From the IMG/VR virus record IMGVR_UViG_3300031758_000017, positions 48,553 to 112,552 of that record: a DNA stretch of 64,000 nt. One strand, 5' to 3'. The translations under genes and the position numbers were made by a program. Below, in pieces: positions 505 to 57,072 of the stretch. The notes below the pieces were generated by a model. That model saw only the letters and a program-made list of their open reading frames with translations, was not told the origin of the DNA and searched no databases. Origin of the DNA: a virus. Positions within the stretch are counted from its first letter, which is position 1. Every line of letters begins with the position of its first letter.

Positions 505-1830
505 ATGAAAAAGAATATATCAAATATCATTTCGGAGTCATTATTTGACGAAGTAAAAAGAACCATATTAAAAGAAAATAAAAAATCTCAAGATATGTTT
601 CAAATTACTTGCGAGGGAGAACCCGTTGAAACATTTGAATCCGAAGAAATTGCAATGCAACATTTGGATATTTATAAAAAGAAACATCCTAAAAAGGAGT
701 TCATAATCGAAAAAGTAAAATATAATTCACCAACTGAAATGATTGATAAATTAGACCAGATGGGAGAAGAATTAGAAGAAAATAAAGAAACCACAAAAAT
801 GAAAAAAATTAAAGTATCGAGCATGGCAGAAGCCATTTTATCCGCTAAAGAAAAAGGTCTAAAAGAAATTAAATTTAACGGAAAAGTACATAATGTTGAA
901 GAATCATGGAAACAACTTGAAGAAGAGGAAGGTGTTTGTGATGAGTGTGGACAAGGTTATATGGAAGAAGAAACAAATGTGGAGGAATCAAGCGCGTTTG
1001 TTTTGGCTGCTGATAAAGCGAGAGATGCTGGTAAAAAAGAATTCGAATTCCCTAAAGGAAGTGGTAAAATGCATAAAGTAACAATCACTAAAGATATTGA
1101 TACAAATGAAGGTGAAATGGGTACGTGTAGTGAGTGTGGTTCACCCATGAATGAGGAAGGAATGTGTTCAGAGTGTGGTACTGGTATGTATGAATCTAAG
1201 AAATCGGTTCTTAGACTTACTGAAAGTGAAATGGTTTCTTTGATTAAAAAAATGGTAATTGATTCAAAAAAAAATCTAAGTGAGGCGGTACCCGGTATTG
1301 CGGTAACTAAGAAAGCTCAGAGTGGTTCTAAAAAAGAAAATGACGACGCAATTAAAGATGTTCAGAAAAAACTGAAAAAAGCATCAACATTTGATGGTAA
1401 TGATAATCCTGAGTTTCCAAAACAAGTTGGTAAAGGTGAAAAAATGGCGGTAAACCCAACTGAGAAACAAGAAGAGTATATTGATGATAATATGAAGGGT
1501 GGTACCCTTTTAGATTTAAATTATGATTTTGAACCATCAGAATCATTCAAAAAAAGATTAAAAATGGCATTAGAAGGTGACTCAAAAATGGGTAACTCAC
1601 AAAATGCTGCTAACGTTATAAAAACAAAAACAGGAGAGAGATTAAGTAAATCGGCTGAAAGAAAAAAAGAAAAAGAGAAAGACGCACCTGAAGCATTCCA
1701 TGGAGCAAGAGGAGTTCAACCTTTAAAAGTAAAGAGTGTGAATGAATCTAAAACTACAATGACTTCAATTGTGAATGAGGAAATCTCGAGAATGAAAAAA
1801 ATCATCGGATACAACGAAAGTACTCAGTAA
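505..1830 (+). CDS. Modular protein with CxxC knuckles and recurring phage peptide motifs
   Basis: Exact function unknown. The 441-residue protein is a string of short modules. The N-terminus (NIISESLFDEVKRTILKEN) and a central segment (VLRLTESEMVSLIKKMV) are amphipathic helices of a kind repeated in other proteins of this window. Two copies of a roughly 30-residue module (AKEKGLKEIKFNGKVHNV and ARDAGKKEFEFPKGSGKMHKV) are visible. Three zinc-knuckle-like pairs, CDECG, CSECG and CSECG, sit between residues 145 and 230. The C-terminus ends in an EEISRMKKIIGYNES tail. The protein is highly charged, without membrane segments. I suspect a virion-associated or prohead-processed protein because of repeated I/L-x-E sites, but that is inference. 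Confidence 0.65.
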   Translation: MKKNISNIISESLFDEVKRTILKENKKSQDMFQITCEGEPVETFESEEIAMQHLDIYKKKHPKKEFIIEKVKYNSPTEMIDKLDQMGEELEENKETTKMKKIKVSSMAEAILSAKEKGLKEIKFNGKVHNVEESWKQLEEEEGVCDECGQGYMEEETNVEESSAFVLAADKARDAGKKEFEFPKGSGKMHKVTITKDIDTNEGEMGTCSECGSPMNEEGMCSECGTGMYESKKSVLRLTESEMVSLIKKMVIDSKKNLSEAVPGIAVTKKAQSGSKKENDDAIKDVQKKLKKASTFDGNDNPEFPKQVGKGEKMAVNPTEKQEEYIDDNMKGGTLLDLNYDFEPSESFKKRLKMALEGDSKMGNSQNAANVIKTKTGERLSKSAERKKEKEKDAPEAFHGARGVQPLKVKSVNESKTTMTSIVNEEISRMKKIIGYNESTQ

Positions 1831-21804: not shown

Positions 21805-22003
21805 AGAAAAGAAATACATCACGGATTTTTTTGTAATAAGAAAGAAATACCATTGGTTTCTTTTACCAACTCCCATATTTTACTACCGTAAAGACACGTT
21901 TTTTGAAACCGGTGCAACCTCACCAAGCTGGGGTTTGGCTTTGAGATTCTTAATTTTTATGGTCGGTATTCAGATACAGAAAAACATATATTATAAAAAA
22001 TGA
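21794..22003 (+). CDS. Small membrane-associated protein
   Basis: A 69-residue protein with a basic N-terminus, aromatic-rich middle (HWFLLPTPIFYYRK) and one hydrophobic helix near the end (WGLALRFLIFMVGIQI). Its stop overlaps the ATG of the glutamine synthetase gene in the ATGA form, so both are probably made from the same transcript. Function unknown. Confidence 0.6.
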   Translation: MSNKEKKYITDFFVIRKKYHWFLLPTPIFYYRKDTFFETGATSPSWGLALRFLIFMVGIQIQKNIYYKK

Positions 22004-23124
22004 AAACAAAAGTAGAATACGTATGGCTTGATGGGTATTCCCCTGAGCCAAATCTCAGAAGTAAAATAAAAATTGTGGACCTACCGGCACCATTTGAATT
22101 GAAACACATCCCCAATTGGGGGTTTGACGGAAGCTCAACTAAACAAGCGGAAGGTAACTTTTCAGATTGTTATCTTAAGCCAGTAAAATTATATCATACA
22201 AATAGTTCACTTGATACAGTATATGTATTATGTGAGGTTTTAGATGGTAATAATGAAATTCATCCATCAAATCATAGAGCAAAAGTAGGTGAGGAAGATG
22301 TAAATTTTTGGGTTGGATTTGAACAGGAATATTTTATTCGTTCTTCACATAATAATCCAATTCTTGGATTTGAAAGAAATGGTATCATTGACGGTCAAGG
22401 AATTTATTATTGTGGTGTAGGTGGACATATTGTTGGTCGAAATATTTCTGATGAACATTTGAACATGTGTTTAAAATATGACATCAATGTGGAGGGAACC
22501 AATTCAGAGGTTGCATTAGGTCAATGGGAATACCAAATTTTTGCAACAGGTAAAATTGCCGCTTCTGATGATTTATGGATGAGTAGATATTTTTTACATA
22601 AAATTGCTGAGAAATATGGTCGTTCTATTGAGTTACATCCCAAACCGATGACCCACGGAGAATGGAACGGTTCAGGTTTACATACAAATTTCTCAAATCA
22701 AAAAATGAGAGAAGAGGGTGGTGAACAATACTTCAATGCAATTTTTAGGTCTTTTGAATCAAGAACACAAGAACATATTGACTCTTATGGTTCTGATAAC
22801 CATTTGAGATTAACAGGTCATTTTGAGACACAATCTATTGATAAATTTAGTTGGGGTGTCTCAGACAGAGGTGCATCTATCCGTGTACCAAAATCCGTTG
22901 GTGAGACATGGAAGGGTTATCTTGAAGACAGGAGACCAGCATCACACGCGGACCCATATAAAATCGTTAAAGTGATTAGTGATAGTTTATCATTAGCCGA
23001 AGAATTAAATAATGTTCATCACATGATGAATGTTGAAATAGACACCGAAAAAATTGTAAATAAATACGGTACACTTTCAGGGGAGGAACTCTTGGAAAGT
23101 TATCGAAAAGATGAAGAAGAATAA
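22000..23124 (+). CDS. Glutamine synthetase, class II (GSII type)
   Basis: Makes glutamine from glutamate, ammonia and ATP. The 374-residue protein has the GSII order: a beta-grasp N-terminus with NWGFDGSSTKQAEGNFSD, then FWVGFEQEYF, EGTNSEVALGQWEYQI, HGEWNGSGLHTNFS, WGVSDRGASIRVP and GYLEDRRPASHADPY, covering the glutamate- and metal-binding residues and the ATP site. The size fits the eukaryote-type class II enzyme instead of the 470-residue bacterial class I enzyme. A phage copy could steer nitrogen toward nucleotide synthesis. It overlaps the upstream small gene. Confidence 0.95.
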   Translation: MKTKVEYVWLDGYSPEPNLRSKIKIVDLPAPFELKHIPNWGFDGSSTKQAEGNFSDCYLKPVKLYHTNSSLDTVYVLCEVLDGNNEIHPSNHRAKVGEEDVNFWVGFEQEYFIRSSHNNPILGFERNGIIDGQGIYYCGVGGHIVGRNISDEHLNMCLKYDINVEGTNSEVALGQWEYQIFATGKIAASDDLWMSRYFLHKIAEKYGRSIELHPKPMTHGEWNGSGLHTNFSNQKMREEGGEQYFNAIFRSFESRTQEHIDSYGSDNHLRLTGHFETQSIDKFSWGVSDRGASIRVPKSVGETWKGYLEDRRPASHADPYKIVKVISDSLSLAEELNNVHHMMNVEIDTEKIVNKYGTLSGEELLESYRKDEEE

Positions 23125-32013: not shown

Positions 32014-32045
32014 TTTGGAAATCAAATTTTTCTTTTCTATATTTG
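32014..32045 (+). promoter_or_regulatory. Promoter, strong consensus match
   Basis: TTTGGA, 18 bases, TATATTTG: exact match to the window consensus. It lies 20 bases before the ATG at 32066. Confidence 0.7.
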
Positions 32046-56193: not shown

Positions 56194-56368
56194 TTCACCT
56201 TGTAAGGAATGTCCATGGGTTGTCAGAAATAATAATAATGACACCATCATCCATTTTTCTAAACGAATGGGTAAATCACACGCTTGTCATATGGTTCAAA
56301 AAAACATATGGGACGTTTCCAAAGACAATATTTGTGAAGGTAGTAAAAGACACTTCAAAAAAAATTAA
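56180..56368 (+). CDS. Small cysteine/histidine protein (CKECPW type)
   Basis: A 62-residue basic protein. SPCKECPWVVRNN at the start and HACHMVQKNIW in the middle place four Cys/His as a likely zinc site; I recall this CxxCPW family from small phage proteins. Function unknown. Confidence 0.65.
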   Translation: MKKTSSPCKECPWVVRNNNNDTIIHFSKRMGKSHACHMVQKNIWDVSKDNICEGSKRHFKKN

Positions 56369-56374
56369 AATATT

Positions 56375-56405
56375 TTTGCATATTAAAAAATATACATTAT
56401 ATTTG
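56375..56405 (+). promoter_or_regulatory. Promoter upstream of micropeptide and ncRNA
   Basis: TTTGCA, 17 bases, TATATTTG. It lies 15 bases before the ATG at 56420 and would also transcribe the structured RNA region to the terminator at 56734. Confidence 0.65.
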
Positions 56406-56419
56406 TATCAAAATTAATT

Positions 56420-56527
56420 ATGACAGTTATTTTAGTATACATAGGATTCTCTCTTTGGTTTCTCGCTGGTTACAAAGTAGGGGAATATAGAACAAGAAAA
56501 GAATATCTAAAGAAACGTTCCGATTAA
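56420..56527 (+). CDS. Single-span membrane micropeptide
   Basis: A 35-residue protein with one hydrophobic helix (VILVYIGFSLWFLAGYKVG) and a basic end (EYRTRKEYLKKRSD). It starts shortly after a good promoter and ends directly at the structured RNA candidate. Function unknown. Confidence 0.5.
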   Translation: MTVILVYIGFSLWFLAGYKVGEYRTRKEYLKKRSD

Positions 56528-56734
56528 TCATCGGATAGTGTGCCTCACATGATGAGAAACGGTGTGATAACCGTAGAGGACTGATAATAAGACAACGTCT
56601 TATTCGGACTGACTATCCGCGGGGAATACCAAAAGGGTGATAAAGAACAACGTGCCCCTGTAAGTCTATTCCTAACCCGGCAACGGGGACAACCATAACA
56701 CCTGAAAGTTGGATAAATTAGGGTGTTTTTTTTT
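56528..56734 (+). ncRNA. Candidate structured non-coding RNA with own terminator
   Basis: No convincing open reading frame covers this 200-base stretch, but it is full of complementary arms. Helix 1: 56532-56539 with 56612-56619 (8 pairs, CGGATAGT/ACTATCCG) encloses three hairpins: CCTC 56543-56546 with GAGG 56576-56579; ACGGT 56559-56563 with ACCGT 56570-56574; AATAAGAC 56586-56593 with GTCTTATT 56597-56604 (8 pairs, AAC loop). Downstream: GGGG 56621-56624 with CCCC 56655-56658, or alternatively GGAATA 56623-56628 with TATTCC 56667-56672; and CCCG 56676-56679 with CGGG 56684-56687 closing a GCAA tetraloop. A terminator stem ends it. It matches no RNA class I know. Confidence 0.75.
56697..56734 (+). 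terminator. Rho-independent terminator of the structured RNA
   Basis: AACACC at 56697-56702 pairs with GGTGTT at 56722-56727 around a 19-base loop, followed by a run of nine T (56726-56734). Confidence 0.75.
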
Positions 56735-56742
56735 GTGATTTT

Positions 56743-56773
56743 TTTGGATTTCACAAAAAAATTTTTATATTTG
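56743..56773 (+). promoter_or_regulatory. Promoter, exact consensus match
   Basis: TTTGGA, 17 bases, TATATTTG, right after the terminator of the RNA and 15 bases before the ATG at 56789. Confidence 0.75.
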
Positions 56774-56788
56774 AAGAAAAATGTGATT

Positions 56789-56875
56789 ATGGAAAGATAT
56801 CCCTTTTGGTTGAACAACTTGGTGTACTTCTTAGCAGGTATAGGATTTGGATTTTTAATCTTTATGTATCTATGA
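56789..56875 (+). CDS. Single-span membrane micropeptide
   Basis: A 28-residue peptide with one hydrophobic helix (NNLVYFLAGIGFGFLIFMYL). Under a strong promoter and overlapping the next gene by four bases (ATGA), which supports its being real. Function unknown. Confidence 0.5.
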   Translation: MERYPFWLNNLVYFLAGIGFGFLIFMYL

Positions 56876-57072
56876 ACACATTTTATATAGGTCAACGGGT
56901 TTTATACAAACAAATGGACTGTGTTGTGACTAATGCATCCATTGCTCGTGGAAAAAAGTATGAAGTTTCTCCTGTTGGTCGTAATCAATACTTCATCGTG
57001 GGGTATTGGGAGATTGAAACACCTAAAACTACATACAATGGACAACCAAGGAAAGAGGAAGGAACAAATTGA
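56872..57072 (+). CDS. Hypothetical small protein
   Basis: A 66-residue protein starting at ATG 56872; the longer frame upstream overlaps the micropeptide. It reads as several beta strands (TFYIGQRVLYKQMDCVVT, KKYEVSPVGRNQYFIVGYWE), like a small SH3-like barrel. No family recognised. Confidence 0.55.
   Translation: MNTFYIGQRVLYKQMDCVVTNASIARGKKYEVSPVGRNQYFIVGYWEIETPKTTYNGQPRKEEGTN

Follow-up and report, generated by a model that had tools for sequence, protein, structure and literature searches.

A gene-free stretch of about 200 bases near the end of the 64,000-nt window (the whole piece of viral DNA analysed here) raised the question of whether it encodes a structured RNA, how such an RNA is made and what it does for the phage. 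Sequence comparison indicated that the stretch is almost certainly a member of a genuine, apparently uncatalogued RNA family of phages. The RNA was common to many large phages and was mostly placed behind a tRNA gene. The window copy was about 220 nt long and the family ranged from about 175 to 250 nt, and comparison of homologues gave an architecture of seven short helices and three pseudoknots, in which the 5' core is highly conserved and the 3' part varies more. The earlier note had called the stretch strongly folded and placed its start at 56528. The folding energy of the window copy was -55.7 kcal/mol (z -0.98) and 35 of 200 shuffles folded equally well; because this is not above chance, the reality of the RNA rests on the comparison. 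The conserved RNA began about 13 bases further upstream, near 56515, within the end of a 35-aa ORF. The elements followed the order H1, H2, PK1, GATGAGAA, H3, H4, H5, PK2, PK3, H6 and H7:

56515–56734, plus strand: whole structured RNA, starting at the conserved ACG and ending with the T run (family alignments A2, A3, A6 and A9)
56519–56523 with 56531–56535, plus strand: helix H1, loop TTAATCA; inner fifth pair not counted
56538–56541 with 56547–56550, plus strand: helix H2, loop GCCTC; 100% of cells paired
56543–56546 (H2 loop) with 56576–56579 (behind H3), plus strand: pseudoknot PK1; 92.6% paired
56551–56558, plus strand: unpaired GATGAGAA linking H2 to H3; identical in all sampled copies, in part by construction, as the scan patterns required this block
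56559–56563 with 56570–56574, plus strand: helix H3, loop GTGATA (UGAU type); 95.9% paired
56586–56593 with 56597–56604, plus strand: helix H4; 95.6% of cells paired in 18 same-subtype relatives
56605–56608 with 56616–56619, plus strand: helix H5, loop CTGACTA; 87.3% paired in 18 relatives
56611–56614 (H5 loop) with 56663–56666, plus strand: pseudoknot PK2, just before UAUUCC
56667–56672 (one T bulged) with 56711–56715 (H7 loop), plus strand: pseudoknot PK3; 100% of cells paired
56676–56679 with 56684–56687, plus strand: helix H6, GCAA loop (GNRA type in the window copy); 93.4% paired
56697–56702 with 56722–56727, plus strand: helix H7, the terminator stem in the window copy; 99.0% paired
56726–56734, plus strand: run of nine T behind H7

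Homologues were collected by pattern scans of IMG/VR. The 5' motif GATGAGAAACNGNGTGATNNCNGT yielded 50 stretches in viral contigs, a looser 5' motif at least 119 rows and a 3' motif 64 stretches; repeats of the window phage are included in these numbers. The first short search pattern was too loose and was abandoned. The 3'-to-5' test was given 46 loci, only 29 of which had not been fetched by the 5' pattern and formed an independent test; all 29 also carried the 5' half on the same strand, and therefore the two halves form one RNA. The covariance model R1, built from the 5' part, found a copy in 100 of 100 and in 51 of 51 loci (35.7–92.1 bits), a recovery that was not independent since nearly all of these loci were pattern-fetched. 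Copies with the 3' domain of the window copy were designated as subtype A. Subtype B had the same 5' core and a different 3' part (its structure folded automatically only), and its loci mostly carried long tRNA arrays; a few copies (L225, L227 and L239) had a third kind of 3' part.

Covariation analysis was performed on 34 full-length homologues (alignment A3, the 34 of 76 matches with a recognised 3' end; row L232 was misaligned in H1). The structure paired 97.2% of 1088 cells, with 132 double-change cells versus 42.2 in shuffled and 4–10 in slid controls. Changes on both sides were present in 21 of 32 pairs, and the covariation score was reached by 0 of 500 shuffles. The number of pair types, one of five covariation measures, was not above shuffles (36 vs. 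37.6), and the same was concluded for the 18 same-subtype relatives (alignment A8, picked by subtype; 16 vs. 15.5). For the 5' core, 62 distinct rows had 98.8% of cells paired and 172 double-change cells versus 49.8 in shuffles, in an alignment that was fitted to the model and leans towards it. A further alignment (A6) held 29 of 74 sequences picked for similar H1 loop length. RNAalifold recovered H1–H3 in subtype B without prompting. The compensatory changes were thus strong and went beyond both shuffled and slid controls, as in a structured non-coding RNA, and indels of varied length in the middle of the RNA make it unlikely that the RNA itself encodes a conserved peptide.

Among the 34 full-length relatives, double changes were found in 2 of 4 pairs of H1 (97.8% of cells paired), 4 of 4 of PK1 and 4 of 5 of H3; on the 62 distinct rows, H1 and H3 reached 4 of 4 and 5 of 5. 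The corresponding counts were 2 of 4 for H2, 3 of 4 for H6 and 5 of 6 for H7, and in the 18 same-subtype relatives 3 of 8 for H4 and 3 of 4 for H5 (92.8% of cells paired for both helices together in the window subtype). The mean run of PK1 was 3.90, compared with 3.47 for re-dealt partners (largest of 500 shuffles, 3.69). For PK2, 45 of 52 rows were kept after removal of near-identical ones and 44 were used (one false start was dropped), giving a mean best run of 4.70 versus 4.25 in shuffles (largest of 300, 4.55); the hairpin scored was not H5 in several rows (e.g., L095, L233, L268 and L293), and the shuffles had the same best-of choice. PK3 is the least proven of the three pseudoknots, because only one of its five pairs varied (U-A in two sequences, U-G in three) and the other four were constant; L259 and L301 paired UAUUUC with GAAUA.

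Much of the structure proposed from the window sequence alone recurred in the family: the 5-pair hairpin 56559–56574 is H3, the 8-pair helix 56586–56593/56597–56604 is H4 and the GCAA-capped stem 56676–56687 is H6. The other proposed 8-pair helix, 56532–56539/56612–56619, was not a family pairing, as 56532–56535 (with 56531 here) closes H1, 56538–56541 opens H2 and 56616–56619 closes H5; it could be an alternative pairing in the window sequence. The TATTCC at 56667–56672 does form a pseudoknot, but its partner is GGATA at 56711–56715 in the H7 loop, while the partner first suggested, GGAATA at 56623–56628, was present in only a few relatives; that single pseudoknot also left out PK1 and PK2. 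The GGACTGA element was found at both 56578 and 56606 but was not conserved as a repeat, and the second copy carries a pseudoknot loop. A CAGC/GUUG pairing beside H7, noticed by eye, was dropped, since two relatives with GCUG have CAAC.

None of 4227 Rfam models (Rfam 15) reached the gathering cut-off over the RNA, and neither ARAGORN nor Rfam gave a tRNA or tmRNA over it in the window, so that it was not assigned to tRNA, tmRNA, RNase P, 6S or any riboswitch or ribozyme class. The region 56350–56900 searched at E 10 gave six matches, all scoring low and well short of the cut-off; four were on the opposite strand. No family matched the RNA in relatives (10 loci searched at gathering, another 10 at E 0.5); in these 20 loci, tRNA matches flanked the RNA and none covered it. 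Neither GOLLD nor ROOL was matched in the window (GOLLD at gathering), in 56350–56900 at E 10 or in the 20 loci. When the window copy and relatives were compared by BLASTn with 50,697 phage records, only short tRNA or chance pieces matched. The family was not found described in the open-licence literature, where a search with its conserved letters returned papers unrelated to phages by title. Covariation, the Rfam result and the distribution together support an undescribed structured non-coding phage RNA with its own terminator, as the earlier note had supposed. The three outcomes named there as refuting (no covariation, an Rfam hit to a known class, a conserved peptide) were checked, and the results spoke against each of them.

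A pattern scan of bacterial and archaeal genomes gave six matches, none with the H1/H2 context by eye; the homologue collection was taken without these six loci and without T4. The best match, in an archaeal MAG, scored 36.6 bits (the weakest accepted member, L366, scored 35.7) and was counted as chance, because it was chosen by pattern and lies antisense inside a 263-aa ORF, and because it missed 3 of 9 conserved H1-loop positions and several H2 positions.

ROOL is much larger than the RNA family described here, and tmRNA is a multi-pseudoknot RNA connected with tRNA. The likeness to tmRNA extends to these two features, and no tmRNA match was obtained in the window. GOLLD is described in passages of PMC12286853 and PMC6582537 as a phage and prophage RNA often located at tRNA islands, with its role unknown; many GOLLD RNAs are longer than 800 nt, and one assembles into a 14-mer cage. 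Binding of GOLLD to ribosomes in pull-downs is reported in a passage of PMC12286853, which also describes ROOL as a phage and prophage RNA, often near tRNA islands, with multiple pseudoknots. As far as these passages go, the present family resembles GOLLD in being a phage RNA with an elaborate fold, often near or inside tRNA arrays, with one part conserved and the other variable; it differs in being about 175–250 nt long with the conserved part at the 5' end. A GOLLD-like placement at phage tRNA arrays was found for most sampled relatives but not for the window copy. With ROOL, the family shares phage origin, the vicinity of tRNA islands and multiple pseudoknots, whereas ROOL forms cages and differs in size. 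As far as tested, no known tRNA-island RNA has the same fold. Orphan structured RNAs of phage tRNA islands are already known as a kind, which the family joins; judged from sequence, it shares the niche of GOLLD, ROOL and T4 RNA C and RNA D and is not detectably related to them.

The window copy lies in an IMG/VR virus record of 112,552 bases that holds no tRNA. A 288-kb record carries an identical neighbouring protein and RNA; there, the RNA is near 203 kb and 24 tRNA matches are at 0.6–5.6 kb. Because there is no tRNA near the RNA in either record, tRNA processing cannot make the ends of the window copy. Its surroundings included the following features:

56375–56405, plus strand: promoter-like site TTTG-N19-TATATTTG, by pattern, lying some 110 bases before the RNA and shared by homologue L095
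56420–56527, plus strand: leader ORF of 35 aa with a hydrophobic N half and a basic C end, overlapping H1
56743–56773, plus strand: second promoter-like site TTTG-N19-TATATTTG, by pattern, behind the RNA
56789–56875: reading frame of 28 aa downstream of the RNA

We take TTTG-N19-TATATTTG to be the Bacteroidota promoter type. The consensus promoters that had been proposed thus have counterparts of this type before and behind the RNA, but the nine matches in the window, versus 6.1 expected, were not significant. A scan for sigma-70-type sites found nothing better than 9-of-12 matches, and shuffles did as well. TTTG...TANNTTTG sites were located on the plus strand at 32014, 37759, 43894, 56375, 56743 and 61157, two of which bracket the RNA; this is perhaps the promoter type of the phage, with a total count not above chance. 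The T run behind H7 is likely an intrinsic terminator here, in agreement with the nine-T terminator first proposed; a simple terminator scan did not list it because the loop is longer than the scan allows. The 35-aa ORF had no Pfam match, and a similar ORF was readable by eye in L095.

Two relatives found via the neighbouring protein, the syntenic homologue L095 and the close relative L094, were compared with the window. In L094, the promoter-ORF-RNA segment was absent with both flanks intact, and its 73-kb record had no match to the RNA model; since the neighbours are retained, the segment behaves as a cassette. Searches with the neighbouring 215-aa protein returned 25 records, each below 60% identity, from Prevotella Lak, Cellulophaga and Tenacibaculum phages; these distant relatives make a Bacteroidota host likely. 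A glutamine synthetase gene was observed at 22000–23124 of the window (Pfam Gln-synt_C, E 3.6e-17, and Gln-synt_N). The model was searched at E 0.1 against 49 records (the window's own, 46 of an 80-locus set, L094 and L095; many are fragments), and seven matched, four strongly (65–85 bits) and three weakly (13–16 bits). The weak matches are probably chance, as unrelated genomes reach the same level. With four strong copies among 49 records, the RNA is not a core gene.

In most relatives, the context was different. The RNA started 0–4 bases behind an ARAGORN tRNA in 28 of 74 copies (76 minus L260 and L344). A T-arm ending 6–14 bases upstream was found in 57 of 87 copies and at 53 of 4350 random positions (1.2%), a count that includes tRNA-like elements missed by ARAGORN; this set was loosely filtered, taken without genome loci, T4 and copies less than 140 bases from a locus end, and includes two probable non-members (L096 and L196) and L260, a repeat of the window phage. 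tRNA genes lay within 2 kb in 51 of 74 copies (69%), modestly above the 52% of random positions in the same loci, and the precise abutment is the stronger evidence. All 418 counted tRNAs were on the same strand as the RNA, which says little because tRNAs of one array share a strand anyway. Behind the RNA, the next tRNA followed 3–6 bases after the end of H7 in nine copies (L229, L236, L259, L268, L281, L284, L288, L301 and L316). This sharp position between tRNA ends suggests that array copies are probably released by tRNA end-processing.

The same position could be read as that of a cis-acting element of the tRNA operon, a trailer or spacer serving maturation, exonuclease block or termination and having no role once released. 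The abutment on tRNA 3' ends fits such an element, and H7 followed by T resembles a terminator by eye in the window, L243, L245, L252 and L258. We nevertheless regard it as unlikely: the 5' core is conserved beyond the needs of a spacer, copies follow at least ten tRNA kinds, arrays hold many tRNAs with usually one RNA copy found, and solitary copies, with no tRNA in the record or locus, occur in the window and in L095.

We lean towards a stable, trans-acting phage RNA that is usually cut from tRNA transcripts. Array copies would be co-transcribed with the tRNAs and host tRNA-processing enzymes would make their ends, while transcription of the window copy would start at a promoter of its own and stop at its own terminator. 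Once released, the compact RNA might be stable and affect the translation machinery or tRNA metabolism in trans during infection, a tentative suggestion drawn from the company it keeps; it might bind, e.g., a ribosome, an enzyme handling tRNAs or a host defence that cuts them. Precedents are GOLLD and ROOL, phage RNAs that in the passages cited above often occur near tRNA islands, GOLLD being said to bind ribosomes.

The earlier suggestion of a sponge or antagonist can be made specific as a decoy of a host factor, e.g., a tRNA-cutting defence nuclease. Phage tRNA arrays are thought to replace tRNAs destroyed by the host, and the RNA is placed with such arrays; its sporadic presence is usual for counter-defence genes, and H1 often resembles an anticodon arm by eye, with five pairs and a 7-base loop. 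Subtype B and copies with a long H1 loop lack this likeness, and the decoy seems distinctly doubtful. The earlier note had also thought of a regulatory or catalytic RNA; no observation pointed to catalysis. A selfish or neutral passenger spreading between tRNA arrays would account for the clean presence and absence in the window and L094 and for the two copies in one related record and in L289, but it is very improbable, because long-term compensatory changes in the helices imply selection on the folded RNA and no gene for mobility was noted next to it. Divergent homology to T4 species 2 RNA (RNA D) was rejected as highly unlikely. T4 rnaD does share the AUGAGAA start and a 5-pair hairpin directly behind tRNA-Arg, and the family model gave its 5' end 18.7 bits (E 5e-5 in a 4-kb stretch). 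In that match, however, H1 is supplied by the tRNA and most of H2 is missing. The orthologues in JS10, VR5 and UP19 and the LTH01 relative read ACAAGAA or AUAAGAA, these four scored at most 4.5 bits at that place with filters off, chance matches reach 16–21 bits (a pattern-selected one 36.6), and a search of whole T4 gave nothing at E 1, a weak negative as its first pass skipped the 18.7-bit place.

A small family with a sharp consensus is added to the orphan RNAs of phage tRNA islands (T4 RNA C and RNA D, GOLLD and ROOL). Its three pseudoknots are testable, and at about 200 nt the RNA is well sized for probing, cryo-EM and pull-downs. Comparing variants that have tRNA neighbours with those that lack them is a natural test of cis versus trans action. 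The covariance model is ready for annotating unlabelled gaps in phage tRNA arrays.

tRNA-shaped elements of 55–150 nt were observed in L254, L259, L376, L384, L293 and other loci (e.g., L316:1032–1132, plus strand), up to four per locus and some immediately before the RNA; none was seen in the window. They had an AGTCAGG/CCTGACT acceptor and a T arm (both search criteria) and, by eye, mostly a Leu-like D arm, with a variable insert replacing the normal anticodon arm. Of 65 elements, 9 parsed as tRNAs, or 34 with introns allowed. They could be scaffolds, decoys or decaying tRNAs. That the RNA is a new class working with these neighbours as a joint RNA toolkit is a speculative and rather improbable idea; if true, the toolkit would be cut out by host tRNA-processing enzymes and would rewire or shield host translation during infection. 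A predicted phage-borne tmRNA (tag ANEYALAA) was found at L240:7072–7441, plus strand, 1.2 kb upstream of an RNA copy. L311:1141–1226 (plus strand) and L382:43–128 (minus strand) reached the Rfam score for selenocysteine tRNA (48.0 vs. 47 bits).

The T4 species 1 and 2 RNAs (RNA C and RNA D) are 139 and 119 nt long and lie behind tRNA-Arg in the T4 tRNA cluster; passages of PMC3014915 and PMC9697503 describe them as small stable RNAs whose roles are not known. The family resembles them in being small, presumably stable and usually encoded behind a tRNA; the AUGAGAA start shared with T4 rnaD is not kept by the rnaD orthologues. An unannotated RNA D relative was observed outside the T4 group, behind tRNA-Met in Escherichia phage LTH01 (Vequintavirinae; L359, about 1203–1306, plus strand), with BLASTn covering its first 57 bases (E 7e-9) and the rest aligned by eye. 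RNA C relatives with no RNA D beside them were located behind tRNA-Trp in Enterobacter phage AS6 (L356:1201–1354, plus strand) and Salmonella phage Melville (L358:1425–1575, plus strand); the AS6 annotation has a hypothetical protein there, on the opposite strand.
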